Of a stretch of 41,313 nt of DNA, positions 27,273 to 33,249 are shown in pieces. How positions within the stretch are numbered: the first letter of the stretch is position 1; each line of letters starts with the position of its first letter. Below the pieces are notes generated by a model that saw only the letters and a list, made by a program, of their open reading frames with translations, searched no databases and was not told the origin of the DNA. Position numbers and translations under genes: made by a program. Source of the DNA: Thiobacillus sp. 65-29 (GTDB lineage Bacteria; Pseudomonadota; Gammaproteobacteria; Burkholderiales; Thiobacillaceae); assembly GCA_001899775.1 (NCBI GenBank), contig MKWN01000051.1, positions 1 through 41,313 on the forward strand, given 5' to 3'.

Positions 27273-28553
27273 TTACGCCGCGCGCCCGCCGCAGGCGTGA
27301 AACCGCCGCACTGCGGACAGGAGATTGAGCCACAGGCTTGCCGCCGACAGGCACAGTACCAGCCCGCCGCCGATCGCGAGCGGCGGCCAGAAGGGCGCCG
27401 GGACGAGCAGCGCACAGGCCGCCAGATGCAGGCGCAGCTGCATGCGCTGGCGGCGCGGGTCGATCATGTCCTTCATCGTCGGGATGGTGCCGGCGCGCGC
27501 CTGCAACTGCGCCTGCAGGTGGAACCAGGCGAGGAAGGGCACGATCTTGTAGAGCATGCCGGAAACGACGCTGACAGCGAAACCGGCAAGAAACAGCACG
27601 CCCAGCAGCAGCGACAAGGCGTCGCGGGCCGCCCCCGCGGGAAGCAACCGCGCGGCGAGCCAGACGCCGACACAGGCAATGAGACTCGCCATGCCCAGAC
27701 GCCAGAAATCGAGGGTGACGTCCGGCAGCTTGCGCCGGCGCCGCGTCTGCAGGCGCAGGGTGACGAGCGCGAACACCAGTACCACGGCGGCGATGCCCGC
27801 CTCGGCGGCGTACGTCAGCGGCGCGGGCAGCCACGGCGCGAAGGCGTAGAGGCCCAGCAACGCGGCGAGGACGAAGGCGAGCCAGCGCGCGATGCGCCGC
27901 GGATAGGGCGGGGTGATCTGGAACATCGGCACCACCTGGTAGGCGATGCCGATGACCAGGAGCAGCACCCAGCCGAGCAGGCCGAACGCGGCGTGCGCGT
28001 CGACGTGCGCCCAGACCGGAGGGCGGGGCAGCCAGCCGGCGCGCGGCAGGGCGAGCGCCACGCCGAAGGTGGCGGTCAGCGCGAGACCGGCGAGCGCCAG
28101 ACGCATGCCGTTGACCGTGTCGCCCCGCGCTGCGCGCGCGAGGCTCGTCGCGGCGGCGATGCCGAACACCGCAAGGCCGGCACCCAGCAGCGCGATGGCG
28201 GCGGTGAATGCCGCGGCGCCGGCGCCGAGAAAAGCGGCGACCAAGAGCGCGCTGCCCAGGGTGAAGGGTGCGTGCGTGAGCCAGGCGACCGCGCGTGGCG
28301 CGGCGATGGGCACGCCGGCGAGCACCGGCAGCATCTGCGTGAGCGCGCCGAGCATGGTCATGCCCAGAAAACCGAGGGTGACCAGATGGGTGAGTGCGAA
28401 GGTGCGCAGCCCCCAGCGTGAACCCAGCGCATCGGGCGCCACGGCCAGCAGCACTCCGGCCGCGAGCAGGAACAGCGGCGCGCTGAGAAAGAAGCGCAGC
28501 GGCAGTGCGAACGGCGGCGCCTGCTCGAACGCGAGTCCGGCCTGCATGCGCAT
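27273..28553 (-). CDS. NnrS-like polytopic membrane protein
   Basis: The 426-residue protein has about twelve hydrophobic helices and repeated His/Pro motifs: HLVTLGFLGMTMLGALTQM, HVDAHAAFGLLGW and GMLYKIVPFLAWFHLQ. These place it in the NnrS/haem-copper-oxidase-like membrane superfamily. NnrS proteins are haem- and copper-containing and are linked to nitric oxide metabolism. The assignment is by pattern, not alignment. Its start is 8 bases beyond the DUF2249 gene's stop, so it is co-transcribed with that gene and probably with the hemerythrin-like gene. No denitrification reductase gene is in the window. Confidence 0.7.
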   Translation of the reverse strand: MRMQAGLAFEQAPPFALPLRFFLSAPLFLLAAGVLLAVAPDALGSRWGLRTFALTHLVTLGFLGMTMLGALTQMLPVLAGVPIAAPRAVAWLTHAPFTLGSALLVAAFLGAGAAAFTAAIALLGAGLAVFGIAAATSLARAARGDTVNGMRLALAGLALTATFGVALALPRAGWLPRPPVWAHVDAHAAFGLLGWVLLLVIGIAYQVVPMFQITPPYPRRIARWLAFVLAALLGLYAFAPWLPAPLTYAAEAGIAAVVLVFALVTLRLQTRRRRKLPDVTLDFWRLGMASLIACVGVWLAARLLPAGAARDALSLLLGVLFLAGFAVSVVSGMLYKIVPFLAWFHLQAQLQARAGTIPTMKDMIDPRRQRMQLRLHLAACALLVPAPFWPPLAIGGGLVLCLSAASLWLNLLSAVRRFHACGGRAA

Positions 28554-28561
28554 GCCGCGCC

Positions 28562-28810
28562 TCAGCTCGCCGCGCCGGGGCCGGCCCGGTAGATGCGGAT
28601 CACGTAGTTGCCGTCCGCTTGCGCGACGGTCTCATGGCGCCAGCCGCGCTGGGCGAGCAGGGGATACAGCGGAAAAGGCTCGCGCGGCAACAGCAGCCGC
28701 AGCGTCTGGCCGGGGCGCGCGGCGTCCAGCGCGGCCAGTACGCGCAGCATGGGCTCCGGGGGTTCCAGGCCGTGTCCGTCGATGAGGATTTCGTTAATCG
28801 GTTTGGGCAT
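28562..28810 (-). CDS. DUF2249 (SirA/TusA-like fold) protein
   Basis: The 82-residue protein matches the DUF2249 family. An early LIDGHGLEPPEPMLRVLAALD segment replaces the Cys-Pro of TusA, and a LLPREPFPLYPLL stretch and YVIRIYRAG end follow. DUF2249 genes cluster with hemerythrins, NnrS and nitrogen-oxide genes and are of unknown function. ATG 28810 is directly preceded by a REP-like palindrome that provides GGGAGGGAG as ribosome-binding site. A second in-frame ATG with the same MPKP start lies 69 bases upstream in the duplicated repeat and would add 23 residues. Confidence 0.82.
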   Translation of the reverse strand: MPKPINEILIDGHGLEPPEPMLRVLAALDAARPGQTLRLLLPREPFPLYPLLAQRGWRHETVAQADGNYVIRIYRAGPGAAS

Positions 28811-29010
28811 TACGTTTGCTCCCTCCCCCGCTCGCGGGGGAGGGTTGGGGAGAGGGGGCGAAGCCGTCGGTTTGGGCATTACGTTTGCCCCCTCCCCCGC
28901 TTGCGGGGGAGGGTTGGGGAGAGGGGGGCGAAGCCGTCGGTTTGGGCATTACGTTTGCTCCCTCCCCCGAATCCCTCTCCCCGCCCTCCCGCAAGCGGGA
29001 GTGGGGGGCA
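28799..29010. repeat. Tandem array of a 69-70 bp unit carrying a start codon and REP-like hairpin
   Basis: Three copies start at 28,799, 28,868 and 28,938 with CGGTTTGGGCATTACGTTTG, which holds the ATG of the DUF2249 gene in reverse. Copies 1 and 2 each contain a perfect hairpin, CCCTCCCCCGC / GCGGGGGAGGG (28,821-28,844 and 28,890-28,913). Copy 3 is rearranged and ends in a shorter CTCCCGC-AA-GCGGGAG hairpin (28,986-29,001). Copies 1 and 2 are in frame with the gene; copy 3 is shifted by one base. Confidence 0.9.
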
Positions 29011-29051: not shown

Positions 29052-29492
29052 TCAGTCCGGCAGCCCCTGCATCGCCTGGAGCACGTCCTCGCGCTCGCCG
29101 GCGAGCGCCTGGTCGGTCATCGGATAGAGCACGTTTTCCTCCTTCATGTTGTGCTGCTGCATCAGCATGTTGAGGGTTTCGGCATGGCCAAGGTAGGCGT
29201 TCGCATCGCCGGCGTTCGCGGCGGCGGCCATCTGCTCCATGAGATCGCGCATCTGCACGTGCTCGCCGCGCATCACCTGGGTCGGTCCCATGCTCATGCC
29301 GGTGCGGGTCTCGAACGCGGGAAACAGCACGTCCTCCTCCATCCTGAAGTGATGCAGGGTGGCGTGCCGGAAGCGCTCGAACGCGTCGCGCGCGCGCGCC
29401 CAGTCGTTTTTCGCCACGGCCTCTTCGGCCGCCGCGAACAGTTCGTCGCACGCGCGATGCGCGTCACCCATGAAGTCTCGGATGCTGCTCAT
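29052..29492 (-). CDS. Hemerythrin-like HHE domain protein
   Basis: The 146-residue all-helical protein has the metal-ligand pattern of HHE/hemerythrin domains: H near residue 12, HHFRMEED near 47-54, GEHVQM near 77-82, and a late HNMKEENVLYP. These residues would hold a di-iron site that binds oxygen or nitric oxide. It is the first of a leftward group with DUF2249 and an NnrS-like protein, which points to nitric oxide or low-oxygen handling (inference). GGAG lies before ATG 29492. Confidence 0.88.
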   Translation of the reverse strand: MSSIRDFMGDAHRACDELFAAAEEAVAKNDWARARDAFERFRHATLHHFRMEEDVLFPAFETRTGMSMGPTQVMRGEHVQMRDLMEQMAAAANAGDANAYLGHAETLNMLMQQHNMKEENVLYPMTDQALAGEREDVLQAMQGLPD

Positions 29493-29536
29493 AGTGGTTC
29501 TCCAGTAAGCCTCGGAAAAATAAATTAATTCAGTTT

Positions 29537-29552
29537 ATCAGGGTATCCTGAT
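29537..29552. promoter_or_regulatory. Inverted repeat in the hemerythrin/nrdD divergent gap
   Basis: ATCAGG-GTAT-CCTGAT is a perfect 6-bp inverted repeat with a 4-base spacer, 45 bases upstream of the hemerythrin-like gene. It could be a binding site for a redox or NO regulator. It does not match the FNR consensus TTGAT-N4-ATCAA. Confidence 0.4.
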
Positions 29553-29564
29553 CTTCAATTCGTC

Positions 29565-29592
29565 TTGACTTTGCCACAAGATGTCGTAGTCT
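29565..29592 (+). promoter_or_regulatory. Putative nrdD promoter
   Basis: TTGACT (29565-29570) and TAGTCT (29587-29592) are 16 bases apart, 47 bases before nrdD. The first NrdR-like box lies between the two elements. Confidence 0.45.
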
Positions 29593-29621
29593 GCATCTTC
29601 GTTGGACACAAAATGTTGTTG
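29573..29621 (+). promoter_or_regulatory. Pair of NrdR-like boxes upstream of nrdD
   Basis: CCACAAGATGTCGTAG (29574-29589) and ACACAAAATGTTGTTG (29606-29621) share 11 of 16 bases and start 32 bases apart. NrdR boxes are 16-bp imperfect palindromes of the ACAC...GTGT type. They usually occur in pairs about three helical turns apart before ribonucleotide reductase genes. The match to the palindromic consensus is partial. Confidence 0.5.
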
Positions 29622-29638
29622 ATCAGGAGGAGACCCCC

Positions 29639-31654
29639 ATGAACGCTGTAGTAGCCGTTTTGCCCCGTGAAGTCCTCAAGCGCGACGGCCGCCGGGCGCC
29701 GTTCGACGCCAACAAGATCCGTTCGGCCATTTTACGCGCCGGGCAGGCGACGGGCGAATTCGGCGAGGCCGAGGCCGATCTGCTGACTGCGCAGGCCGCC
29801 AAGGTGCTGATCCACAAATACCATGGCACGCCGCCCGGCATCGAGGGCATCCAGGACATCGTCGAACAGACCCTGATCGCCGCCAACCACCTGGAAACCG
29901 CGCGCGCCTACATCGTCTACCGCGAAAGCCACAAGAAGCTGCGCGAAGACCGCAAGACCGTGGTCGACGTCGAGGCCTCGATCAACGAATACCTGTCGCG
30001 CCAGGACTGGCGCGTCAACGCCAACGCCAACCAGGGCTACAGCCTGGGCGGCCTGATTCTCAACGTCTCCGGCAAGGTGGTGGCGAACTACTGGCTGAAC
30101 CACGTCTATCCGCCCGAACTGGGCGAAGCGCACCGCGACGGCTCGATCCACATCCACGACCTCGACATGCTGGCAGGCTACTGCGCCGGCTGGTCGCTGC
30201 GCACCCTGCTGCACGAGGGCCTCAATGGCGTGCCGGGCAAGGTCGAGGCCGGCCCGCCCAAGCACATGTCCTCGGCGGTCGGCCAGATCGTCAACTTTCT
30301 CGGCACCCTGCAGAACGAGTGGGCCGGCGCGCAGGCGTTCAGTTCGTTCGACACCTACATGGCGCCCTTCATCCGCAAGGACAACCTGCCCTATACCCAG
30401 GTCAAGCAATACATCCAGGAACTGATCTACAACCTCAACGTGCCGTCGCGCTGGGGTACGCAGACGCCGTTCACCAACCTCACTTTCGACTGGGTGTGCC
30501 CGGAAGACCTGCGCGAGCAGGTGCCGGTGGTCGGCGGCGTGGAGATGCCGTTCACCTATGGCGAATTGCAGGCCGAGATGGACATGATCAACCGCGCCTA
30601 CATCGAGGTGATGACCACCGGCGATGCCAAGGGTCGCGTGTTCACCTTCCCCATCCCGACCTACAACATGACGCCCGACTTCCCCTGGGAATCGGAAAAC
30701 GCCGAGCGCCTGTTCGCCATGACCGCGCGCTACGGCCTGCCGTATTTCCAGAACTTCATCAATTCCGAGATGAAGCCCAACCACATCCGCTCGATGTGCT
30801 GCCGCCTGCAACTCGACCTGCGCGAACTGCTGAAGCGCGGCAACGGCCTGTTCGGCTCGGCCGAGCAGACCGGCTCGGTCGGCGTGGTGACGGTGAACTG
30901 CGCGCGCCTCGGCCACGAATACAAGGGCGACGAGGACGGCCTGCTGCGCCGTCTCGACGCGCTGCTCGACATGGCGCGCAACGGCCTCGAAATCAAGCGC
31001 AAGGAAATCCAGCGTCTGATGGACAGCGGGTTGTTCCCGTACACCAAGCGCTATCTTGGCACCCTGCGCAACCACTTCTCGACCATCGGCGTCAACGGCG
31101 TCAACGAGATGATCCGCAATTTCAGCGGCGACGAACACGACATCACCACGGTGTGGGGCCACGACTTCGCCGTGCGCCTGCTCGATCACATCCGCAGCCG
31201 CATCGCCGAATTCCAGGAGGAAACCGGCCACCTCTACAACCTGGAGGCGACCCCGGCCGAAGGCACCACCTACCGCTTCGCCAAGGAAGACGCCAAACGC
31301 TACCCCGGCATCCTGCAGGCAGGCACGCCCGACGCGCCGTACTACACCAACTCGACGCAACTGCCGGTCGGCTTCACCGACGACGCCTTCGAGGCGCTGG
31401 AGCGCCAGGACGACCTGCAGCGCAAGTACACCGGCGGCACCGTGCTGCACCTCTACATGTCGGAGAACATTTCCTCGACCGAGGCCTGCCGCAACCTGGT
31501 GCGCCGTTCGCTGGAGCGCTTCCGCCTGCCCTACATCACCATCACCCCGACCTTCTCGATCTGTCCCAAACATGGCTACCTCGCCGGCGAGCACGAGTTC
31601 TGTCCGAAATGCGACGAGGAAGCCCTGTCCCGCAAACGTGCTGTTGCAGCCTGA
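29639..31654 (+). CDS. nrdD: Anaerobic (class III) ribonucleoside-triphosphate reductase, large part without glycyl-radical tail
   Basis: NrdD reduces NTPs to dNTPs under anaerobic conditions. The 671-residue protein has an N-terminal ATP-cone (about 10-100: LKRDGRRAPFDANKIR). The ten-stranded barrel core follows, with SSAVGQIVNFLGTLQNEWAGAQAFSS and the MCCRLQLDLREL segment. A C-terminal zinc site has C642, H645, C655 and C658 (CPKH...CPKC). It then stops at 31654. The RVxGY glycyl-radical segment normally following the zinc site is absent here and is found in the next gene, in another frame. A strong AGGAGGAG precedes ATG 29639. The protein should need the next product and NrdG to be active. 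Confidence 0.94.
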   Translation: MNAVVAVLPREVLKRDGRRAPFDANKIRSAILRAGQATGEFGEAEADLLTAQAAKVLIHKYHGTPPGIEGIQDIVEQTLIAANHLETARAYIVYRESHKKLREDRKTVVDVEASINEYLSRQDWRVNANANQGYSLGGLILNVSGKVVANYWLNHVYPPELGEAHRDGSIHIHDLDMLAGYCAGWSLRTLLHEGLNGVPGKVEAGPPKHMSSAVGQIVNFLGTLQNEWAGAQAFSSFDTYMAPFIRKDNLPYTQVKQYIQELIYNLNVPSRWGTQTPFTNLTFDWVCPEDLREQVPVVGGVEMPFTYGELQAEMDMINRAYIEVMTTGDAKGRVFTFPIPTYNMTPDFPWESENAERLFAMTARYGLPYFQNFINSEMKPNHIRSMCCRLQLDLRELLKRGNGLFGSAEQTGSVGVVTVNCARLGHEYKGDEDGLLRRLDALLDMARNGLEIKRKEIQRLMDSGLFPYTKRYLGTLRNHFSTIGVNGVNEMIRNFSGDEHDITTVWGHDFAVRLLDHIRSRIAEFQEETGHLYNLEATPAEGTTYRFAKEDAKRYPGILQAGTPDAPYYTNSTQLPVGFTDDAFEALERQDDLQRKYTGGTVLHLYMSENISSTEACRNLVRRSLERFRLPYITITPTFSICPKHGYLAGEHEFCPKCDEEALSRKRAVAA

Positions 31655-31671
31655 CCCCCAAGGAGACCCGC

Positions 31672-31860
31672 ATGAACGATATGACCCTTCCGACCCAGTT
31701 TCTCGACGCCGCCGCCGTCCTCAAGGACGAGGAGCGTACCCGCTGCGAAGTGTGGACCCGCGTCATGGGCTACCACCGCCCCACCAGCAGCTTCAACAAG
31801 GGCAAGCAGAGCGAGCATCGCGAGCGCCAGTTCTTCGTCGAGGGACGCTGCGCCGCCTGA
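31672..31860 (+). CDS. Separate glycyl-radical tail of class III ribonucleotide reductase
   Basis: This 62-residue protein contains RCEVWTRVMGYHRPTSSFN. The RVMGYH segment is the glycyl-radical site of NrdD, with G33 as the radical glycine. The end (HRERQFF) matches the normal NrdD C-terminus. The gene has its own AAGGAG 6-8 bases before ATG 31672, 17 bases after the nrdD stop and in a different frame. A clean start, ribosome-binding site and a 24-residue lead-in argue for a true split gene rather than a sequencing frameshift, but an error cannot be excluded from one sequence. NrdG, the activase, follows 81 bases downstream. Confidence 0.88.
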   Translation: MNDMTLPTQFLDAAAVLKDEERTRCEVWTRVMGYHRPTSSFNKGKQSEHRERQFFVEGRCAA

Positions 31861-31903
31861 CCCCGTCAACCCTGCCACTCTGCAGAGCGGCGCTTGAGGC
31901 CTC

Positions 31904-31925
31904 GCCCCGTGCGGGGCCGTTTTTC
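31904..31925 (+). terminator. Terminator-like hairpin before nrdG
   Basis: GCCCCG-TG-CGGGGC followed by CG and a run of five T lies between the glycyl-radical gene and nrdG. It could partly stop transcription, so that less activase than reductase is made, or separate the two units. The stem is only 6 bp but very GC-rich, and can extend with flanking bases. Confidence 0.6.
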
Positions 31926-31941
31926 TCCCGGGATCGACTGC

Positions 31942-32631
31942 ATGTTGCGCGTCGGCGGCCTCACGCCGCTTTCCTCCACCGACTGGCCCGGCCAGTTGTC
32001 CGCCGTGGTGTTCTGCCAGGGCTGTCCGTGGCGCTGCGGCTATTGCCACAATCCCGGCCTCATCCCCGTGCAGGCCGACACGGAAATCGCCTGGGACGAG
32101 GTCATGGCGCTGCTGCGCCGCCGCCAGGGCCTGCTCGACGCGGTGGTGTTTTCCGGCGGCGAGCCGACCCTGCAGGTGGCCCTGCCGGACGCCATGCGCG
32201 AAGTGCGCGCGCTCGGTTTCAAGATCGGCCTGCACACCGGCGGCATGTATCCGCGGCGACTGGAAGCCGTGCTGCCGTGGGTCGATTGGGTCGGACTCGA
32301 CGTCAAGGCGCCGTTCGAGGCCTATGCGGGCGTGACCGGCGTCGACGGCAGCGGCGCGCGCGCCCTCGAAAGCCTGCAACAGCTCCTCGCGTCGGGTGTC
32401 GATTACGAGGTGCGCACCACCGTGCATCCCGAACTGCTCGACGACGTTGCGCTGGCAACGCTCGCCCGCGATCTCGCCGCGCGCGGCGTCAAGCGTTACG
32501 TCGTGCAGGCCTTCCGTCCGCAGGGCTGCCAGGATGCGAAGCTGTGCGCCACCGCCACGCGCACCCGCTCCCTGCACGAAACCAGCAACGACTTCGCCGG
32601 GCTGTTCGACGATTTCAGCGTACGCGGCTGA
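31942..32631 (+). CDS. nrdG: Anaerobic ribonucleotide reductase activating protein (radical SAM)
   Basis: NrdG uses S-adenosylmethionine and a 4Fe-4S cluster to make the glycyl radical on NrdD. The 229-residue protein has the radical SAM cluster motif C28-PWR-C32-GY-C35, then FSGGEPTLQ near 70-78 (SAM-binding GGE). It is of the longer type found with the NrdD subgroup seen here. ATG 31942 gives the usual start (MLRVGGLTPLSSTDWPG). In this locus its target glycine would be on the separate 62-residue protein. Confidence 0.93.
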   Translation: MLRVGGLTPLSSTDWPGQLSAVVFCQGCPWRCGYCHNPGLIPVQADTEIAWDEVMALLRRRQGLLDAVVFSGGEPTLQVALPDAMREVRALGFKIGLHTGGMYPRRLEAVLPWVDWVGLDVKAPFEAYAGVTGVDGSGARALESLQQLLASGVDYEVRTTVHPELLDDVALATLARDLAARGVKRYVVQAFRPQGCQDAKLCATATRTRSLHETSNDFAGLFDDFSVRG

Positions 32632-32653
32632 GCGCTAGTTTCTCCCCGCCCGC

Positions 32654-33119
32654 GCCGCGATTTTCGGGCGGTGGAAACATCACGGCATCGGGCCGAGGGC
32701 GACCCTCCTACAACACCTCCCCTGTAGGAGCGGCGCCCTCGCCGCGATTTTCGGGCGCTGAAACCCTCACCCCATCGGCCCGCGGGCGCCCCGCCTGCAA
32801 CCTCCCCTGTAGGAGCCGCGCCCTCGCCGCGATTTTCGGGCGGTGGGATCTTCACGGCATCGGGCCGCGGGCGCCCCGCCTGCAACCTCCCCTGTAGGAG
32901 CGGCGCCCTCGCCGCGATTTTCGGGCGGTGGAAACATCACGGCATCGGGCCGGGGGCGGCCCTCCTACAAGGGCGCGGTACCCCTGTAGGAGCACCCGCA
33001 AGGGGCAGGCCGTGGTTGTAATGCCAATAAATTGGCAACAACCACGCACCGGCGCCCTCGCCGCGATTTTCGGGCGCTGAAACCCTCACCCCATCGGCCC
33101 GCGGGCGCCCCGCCTTGTA
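32654..33119. repeat. Array of 85-87 bp REP-type repeats
   Basis: The core GCCGCGATTTTCGGGCG occurs at 32,654, 32,741, 32,826, 32,911 and 33,060. Most copies are preceded by CCTGTAGGAGC and the hairpin GCGGCG-CCCT-CGCCGC. Spacing is 87, 85, 85 and then 149 bases, the last enlarged by an insert with its own palindrome. GTAG followed by a GC hairpin is the hallmark of REPs moved by REP-associated tyrosine transposases. Copies alternate in the tail after the core (GTGG versus CTGAAACCCTC). Confidence 0.9.
33011..33046. repeat. 36-base near-perfect palindrome inside the repeat array
   Basis: CGTGGTTGT-AA-TGCCAAT pairs with ATTGGCA-ACAACCACG around an AA centre, with one AA bulge. It is AT-richer than its surroundings and lies in the extra segment between repeat copies 4 and 5. 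It can form a cruciform or RNA hairpin and looks like an insertion of different origin. Confidence 0.8.
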
Positions 33120-33128
33120 CCGGCGAAT

Positions 33129-33249
33129 GGACACAATCCGGGTTCATCTATAATCGGCACTGAAGTGCGACCTACAGTTCAGCCATCGAATCGCCGTATC
33201 AATAGGCTCCTTCGCGGACAAAGGATTTGGACATGAACCCGGATTGTCC
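33129..33249. mobile_element. MITE-like 121-bp element with terminal inverted repeats
   Basis: The left end reads, in reverse complement, ATGAACCCGGATTGTGTCC (33,129-33,147). The right end is ATGAACCCGGATTGTCC (33,233-33,249), so the ends are 17 bp inverted repeats differing by a GT insertion. There is no coding capacity inside. Related single ends occur at 39,897-39,913 and 41,237-41,256. Confidence 0.6.

Follow-up and report, generated by a model that had tools for sequence, protein, structure and literature searches.

A probable two-chain class III ribonucleotide reductase in Thiobacillus sp. 65-29 and relatives of its small glycyl-radical protein on viral contigs

Class III ribonucleotide reductases are usually presented as one chain that carries both the active site and the radical. 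In the known NrdD enzymes, the chain continues from the zinc site into a loop that reaches down inside the barrel, where its glycine comes to lie near the radical cysteine, and then into a tail over the barrel (PMC4493059, PMC11226230); the zinc ligands of Thermotoga maritima NrdD are arranged as CxxxHx6CxxC (PMC4493059). We examined an nrdD locus in a 41,313-nt stretch of Thiobacillus sp. 65-29 (assembly GCA_001899775.1, contig MKWN01000051.1, positions 1–41,313; "the window" below means this whole stretch), in which the glycyl-radical segment is encoded by a small open reading frame (ORF) of its own, immediately downstream of nrdD. The locus very probably encodes a two-chain class III reductase of the NrdDh4 type, whose C-terminal radical segment is a separately translated subunit.

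The system shares its barrel, Cys3-His zinc ribbon, double-cysteine motif, and NrdG activase with the subclass NrdDh (T. maritima, N. bacilliformis); the window NrdD also has an ATP-cone, and the difference is that its radical loop is on a second polypeptide. Class II reductases use adenosylcobalamin and no glycyl radical. One of them, NrdJa/NrdJb of Pseudomonas aeruginosa, likewise divides between two genes an enzyme that is elsewhere a single chain (PMC4520616), but the window enzyme belongs to class III. YfiD (GrcA) of E. coli and Y06I of phage T4 are, like the small protein, stand-alone glycyl-radical segments, one of them phage-borne (PMC8683613); the system in the window differs in that its main enzyme lacks such a segment and is a ribonucleotide reductase rather than pyruvate formate-lyase. 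According to Andorfer et al. 2021, YfiD and Y06I are the only validated spare parts, both serve pyruvate formate-lyase, and others may exist (PMC8683613). Phage nrdD genes split by introns, inteins, and endonucleases also occupy more than one ORF, mostly through mobile-element interruptions and in one instance from an unknown cause (PMC3653736, PMC12363816), whereas the split in the window lies at a domain border, is conserved, and gives each piece its own start.

The nrdD locus in the window and in cellular genomes

The nrdD gene (29639–31654, forward strand) encodes a 671-aa catalytic subunit (PF03477, PF13597, and NF006126, the last with 1132.8 bits) that contains an ATP-cone, the barrel, an SMCCR motif, and a Cys/His zinc ribbon, and is without the glycyl-radical loop. 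Its C-terminal end reads CPKHGYLAGEHEFCPKC-DEEALSRKRAVAA-stop, where CPKHGYLAGEHEFCPKC (31562–31612, forward strand, read from the sequence) is the zinc-ribbon motif, and 13 more residues follow the last zinc-ribbon cysteine before the stop. A 62-residue ORF (31672–31860, forward strand), the proposed separate subunit, starts with an ATG 17 bases beyond this stop in a different frame, behind an AAGGAG ribosome-binding site (RBS) at 31660–31665 (forward strand, read from the sequence). It encodes CEVWTRVMGYHRP, including RVMGYH, in which the codon of the predicted radical glycine, Gly33, lies at 31768–31770 (forward strand) by sequence and by alignment to PF13597. The radical SAM activase gene nrdG follows on the same strand (31942–32631, 229 aa; TIGR02495 NrdG2, E 9.4e−64). 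An earlier note on this DNA had ended NrdD right after its zinc site and put RVMGYH on a separate ORF with its own AAGGAG and ATG, and all of its coordinates proved exact.

The PF13597 (NRDD) profile is shared out between the two ORFs, with positions 2–530 matching NrdD (E 8.6e−175) and 532–562 matching the small ORF (E 1.8e−8, above the curated cut-off). Up to E 1, no Pfam or NCBIfam match linked the small protein to YfiD or pyruvate formate-lyase, and its matches of note were NrdD models; the RVMGYH region also aligned with the C-terminal loop of T. maritima NrdD, although the match was weak (E 0.94). The barrel and zinc ribbon of a class III enzyme and its NrdG activase are therefore present, while the radical loop that normally forms the C-terminus of the same chain sits on the next ORF. 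The assignment to NrdDh4 was made because SMCCR and GLFG, read by eye rather than with an NrdDh4 profile, match the published marks of this type, namely the MCCR variant of the double-cysteine motif and Phe at the finger-loop position (PMC4493059). Among the matches listed in a search of the host genome, NrdD and the small ORF each occurred at a single place, so that there is one such system; a further match of NrdD was to the ATP-cone only, within another reductase. The genome encodes two more ribonucleotide reductase large chains, whose open frames of 976 aa and 701 aa suggest by length that they are class I and class II.

The family was searched in 117 genomes, at least 99 of which gave some match, many merely through the ATP-cone of another reductase; among the matches listed, we read those that include the C-terminal end of NrdD, which gave 56 loci in 55 genomes. 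A script parse labelled 54 of the 56 as split and none as intact, so that the check on relatives proposed in the earlier note did not refute the split. The two remaining loci are one that reaches its contig end (L026) and one labelled gly-only (L062), in which an 83-aa NrdD tail ends in the same way as at the other family loci.

The GTDB collection was then searched for the small protein with the patterns [VI][WY]TRVMGY and FNxGK[QK][GSA]E[HY], which partly build in the conservation of RVMGY. The best 80 of at least 570 loci in named genomes were kept, and shares given for this search refer to those. The script labels were 78 split, 1 alone, and 1 intact, with two corrections: the "split" locus L115 has short decayed NrdD pieces upstream, and the "intact" locus L142 is a decayed second locus of Magnetospirillum fulvum. 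A separate NrdD ORF lay just upstream of the small gene in 77 of the 80 and NrdG just downstream in 75. The split group includes species of Cupriavidus, Bradyrhizobium, Achromobacter, Thauera, Pseudomonas, and Thiobacillus. At two loci (L090 and L101), the small ORF has 100 aa from its script-chosen start and contains a repeated stretch of the EERTR type. At two others, G233:C2:195300-200000 (L299) and G480:C37, the NrdD match is broken in frame near profile positions 156–158 within ORFs of 1021 and 1567 aa, respectively, which suggests an intein.

Furthermore, 29 plasmid records matched the small protein. In the records opened, the small gene is annotated as nrdD beside the NrdG gene on plasmids of Cupriavidus necator, Bradyrhizobium, Thiothrix, and Shinella, and likewise on those of Azospira, Sulfuricystis, Aquabacterium, and Sulfuricurvum; the opened records of Acidiphilium, Actinomyces, Acidithiobacillus, and Geoalkalibacter have a one-chain NrdD. 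The small gene is thus known to the NCBI annotation under a name shared with the large gene. On one Bradyrhizobium plasmid (L033), NrdD is in two parts with an IS3-family transposase gene between them, and the small gene and nrdG are whole. The C. metallidurans genome paper gives NrdDG as Rmet_5137 and Rmet_5139 and passes over the one locus tag between them (PMC2864759), which we infer to be the small gene. We found no description of a split NrdD in the openly licensed literature, which omits most subscription papers.

Copies of the small gene away from nrdD

In one genome (G722), the small gene and nrdG are located ~9 kb from nrdD, with oppositely oriented ORFs between them; the small gene there starts with an ATG behind an AAGGAG of its own. 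Three other genomes have a split operon plus one more stand-alone copy: in G855 (Thiobacillus), the extra copy sits among phage tail and baseplate genes; in G860 (Turicimonas), it adjoins genes for tail-fibre assembly, holin, endolysin, and integrase; and in G353, its neighborhood includes RecT and part of another ribonucleotide reductase, the C-terminal end, whose gene is cut by the stretch examined. Two of the genomes thus have their extra copies in prophages. A fourth genome (G856) has its extra copy in a decayed locus. Two Allochromatium plasmids, searched whole, carry the small gene and no NRDD core. This genome layout supports the proposition that the small protein acts in trans.

Relatives of the small protein, sought with the patterns used for the GTDB collection, are also encoded by 185 stretches in IMG/VR, the best 80 of which were kept. 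The small gene stood alone at 68 of these 80 loci, whereas 11 lay <700 bases from the upstream edge and 1 was not parsed; at none of the 80 was there an NrdD or NrdG match on either strand of the sequence covered. At least 2 kb of sequence flanked the gene on both sides in 45 of the 68 stand-alone loci, and in a PF13597 search that covered 38 of the 80 whole viral records, all 38 contained the radical segment only, although such records may be fragments. Among 120 neighboring ORFs at 24 viral loci, several matched terminase, portal, integrase, tape measure, and baseplate families, indicating that many of the carriers are real phages, and PHROG 4132, a family without functional annotation, covered the radical segment in all six proteins tried. 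Nine IMG/VR loci (L185, L191, L194, L214, L224, L225, L230, L238, and L240) have an extension of ~30–40 residues, containing several Cys, on the N-terminal side of the radical segment.

Protein searches of 50,697 isolate-phage records gave three matches: a 144-aa protein of the small radical type near a prohead protease in ANMV-1 virus, a segment directly after NrdD in one human-gut phage, and, in one further virus, a match (E 0.1) across a gene whose annotation is the reductase. With so few isolate matches, nearly all of the viral copies are from uncultured contigs. In a human-gut phage, MT835493.1 (L320), an NrdD of the kind that is split elsewhere occupies one 810-aa ORF, whose C-terminal stretch looks by eye like thioredoxin or glutaredoxin. 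As a control, the Escherichia-type segment was sought in viral contigs; at 23 of 24 loci it shared a single ORF with NrdD, complete or partial, one locus had NrdD in the neighboring ORF, and none had the segment alone, although one of the two search patterns lay in the zinc region and thus favored whole enzymes.

The layouts unlinked to nrdD, duplicated in prophages, and alone on viral contigs lend support to the radical-bearing small subunit proposed in the earlier note; the breadth of the split and the stand-alone copies go beyond what that note contained. The arrangement of YfiD, a segment encoded apart from its main enzyme, is found in G722, in the viral records, and in both plasmids (2/2), whereas the gene in the window adjoins nrdD. 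The small protein is likely to function as a separate subunit, and its use for oxygen repair in the manner of YfiD is a reasonable extension that we rate slightly below an even chance. The strongest alternative, which we also place a little short of even, sees the small protein as an obligate subunit that was split off for reasons other than oxygen, for instance so that its dose or activation can be controlled separately, and that is not exchanged after damage. Its position just before nrdG in 75 of the 78 split-labelled loci agrees with an obligate role, but the prophage and viral stand-alone copies would be easier to understand for an exchangeable part than for one that stays bound permanently.

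Instead of being working radical carriers, the stand-alone viral copies, which have no known activity, could act on the host enzyme as decoys or inhibitors. We regard such a role as unlikely. Gly and Tyr are present in all 64 distinct stand-alone cores, albeit favored by the search patterns, and the Cys eight residues before Gly, which no pattern required, occurs in 62 of these 64 and in all 77 distinct split cores. This Cys is also found in some intact relatives and hence is not specific to the split.

Reading frames, origin, and surroundings of the split

The relation between the two genes was compared at 77 of the 80 loci kept from named genomes. The three relative frames of nrdD and the small ORF were about equally frequent (28/26/23), the gap between them ranged from −23 to 298 bases, and at least four of six positions matched AGGAGG before the small ORF at 74 of the 77 loci; most of the 77 small ORFs had both an RBS and an ATG. 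Because the relative frames are evenly spread, a shared frameshift is excluded, and because gap length and relative frame differ among relatives, no single-base error explains the split. Programmed frameshifting or stop-codon readthrough that yields a fused NrdD, with the small ORF not translated alone, would find some room in the 20 of the 77 listed loci that have both parts in the same frame with at least one stop between them (23 by frame count) and in two genomes where a single in-frame TAG separates the parts of a more distant NrdD. Such a mechanism is hard to reconcile with the even frames, the range of gaps, or the ~9-kb separation in G722, and we rejected frameshifting on the even frames, so that fused translation is very improbable as a general explanation.

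In 944 pairs from 44 family loci, the core of the small ORF had a mean proportion of synonymous differences (pS) of 0.325 and a mean proportion of nonsynonymous differences (pN) of 0.048 (pN/pS 0.147). When the same DNA was read two bases on, pN exceeded pS in 630 stop-free pairs, and when it was read one base on, just one stop-free pair was left. The small ORF is under purifying selection. That a sequencing error or recent frameshift broke one NrdD gene in this assembly, as the mere 17 bases and the change of frame might suggest, was rejected as having a negligible chance, given 54 split and no intact loci among 56 relatives, relative frames that vary across the 77 loci, the small ORF's own RBS and start, and its purifying selection.

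A tree of 65 NrdD rows placed all 48 split rows in one clade with a support of 98. The tree came from a short search with the root set by an outgroup; L276, L291, L307, L115, L299, rows <540 aa, and near-copies were left out, and L318 and L320, which the motif had missed, were labelled intact by hand. The split/intact label needs four changes on this tree, which fits one split followed by about three later fusions, a direction that we infer. Outside the tree are two genomes of one genus, G773:C1:437500-441500 (L307) and G705:C1:443500-446000 (L348), in which a more distant NrdD ends in TAG after the zinc site; AAAGGG follows, then an ATG 12 bases on, which opens a protein on the scale of 60 residues with RRITGY in the same frame. 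These may represent a second, independent split in a distant NrdD, and readthrough may occur at their single in-frame stop.

Around the locus in the window, a consensus scan placed a terminator-like hairpin, with a T-run behind it, in the stretch that separates the small ORF from nrdG (31898–31918, forward strand); within 29400–32000, three such hairpins were found against 2.1 expected. A rougher scan of low sensitivity, which missed the window's own hairpin too, detected one before nrdG at 3 of 53 loci of the family and at 2 of 56 outside it. No FNR-type site was found in the upstream region of nrdD with up to two mismatches allowed, a setting that gave 13 matches window-wide, the closest before nrdD being at 28590. 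Upstream of nrdD, the minus strand encodes a hemerythrin-like protein (29052–29492), a DUF2249 protein (28562–28879), and a 426-aa protein with no Pfam match (27273–28553); in C. necator H16, hemerythrin-domain and DUF2249 genes lie downstream of nrdG. Downstream of nrdG in the window, 32640–33130 contains short repeats, noticed on visual inspection because the translated ORFs include similar peptides.

Structure, proposed mechanism, and implications

The break in the window falls between the zinc ribbon and the radical loop. In some one-chain relatives, this joint has a few residues, compared with the 13-residue tail of NrdD plus the variable start of the small protein (~20 residues) in the split form. 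The read-through form of a relative, modelled in two AlphaFold runs, had a class III fold by Foldseek, in which the first 36 rows were chains of class III reductases. The second model showed two strands meeting at the glycine and then a helix, with moderate confidence.

Several observations weigh against a two-chain enzyme. The AlphaFold confidence of the radical segment is low (<50 in the first model, with block means of ~63–69 from the loop on in the second), so that docking stays a proposal which these models neither support nor contradict. Three intact enzymes, from Acidiphilium, Actinomyces, and one other genome, lie inside the split clade, and the split is thus not needed for function. 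NrdD is also in one piece in most of the phylum-sample genomes with a match: among 397 genomes, 66 matched NRDD (E 0.001), of which 46 had it in one piece and 17 were split, 1 was weak, and 2 were G773 and G705 with their stop at the same place. In the class sample of 370 genomes, 39 matched, with 30 split, 7 intact, and 2 partial or weak. These tallies were counted by hand from the result rows, and several genomes are common to both samples; among the intact loci read from them, 27 end like Escherichia NrdD.

If the enzyme is made of two chains, the 671-aa NrdD would supply the ATP-cone, barrel, catalytic cysteines, and zinc ribbon, and the 62-aa protein would dock at the zinc-ribbon end, as the normal loop does, with RVMGYH in the part that reaches into the barrel. 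NrdG would then make the radical on Gly33 of the docked subunit, from which it would pass to an NrdD cysteine in each turnover. Docking and activation within the complex appear most likely, and after cleavage by oxygen the damaged small subunit might be exchanged. Repair by subunit exchange, as with YfiD, is plausible, and so is a supply of spare parts by phages.

The two-chain reading implies that a large bacterial group uses two chains for its class III reductase and that NrdD and NrdG expressed alone from organisms with the split would lack the radical site. A radical carrier of 62 residues would also be a simple system in which to study the need of NrdG for a docked complex, the exchange of damaged sites, and carriage by phages. 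For the last of these, we consider the chances about evenly balanced that phages carry an exchangeable radical subunit and that a gene of about 45–90 codons sustains or restores deoxynucleotide synthesis in the host while infection proceeds anaerobically. Why phages carry such parts beyond pyruvate formate-lyase is a question left open by Andorfer et al. 2021 (PMC8683613), and the phage-carried part, if this is true, would be the first spare part of a glycyl radical enzyme outside pyruvate formate-lyase.

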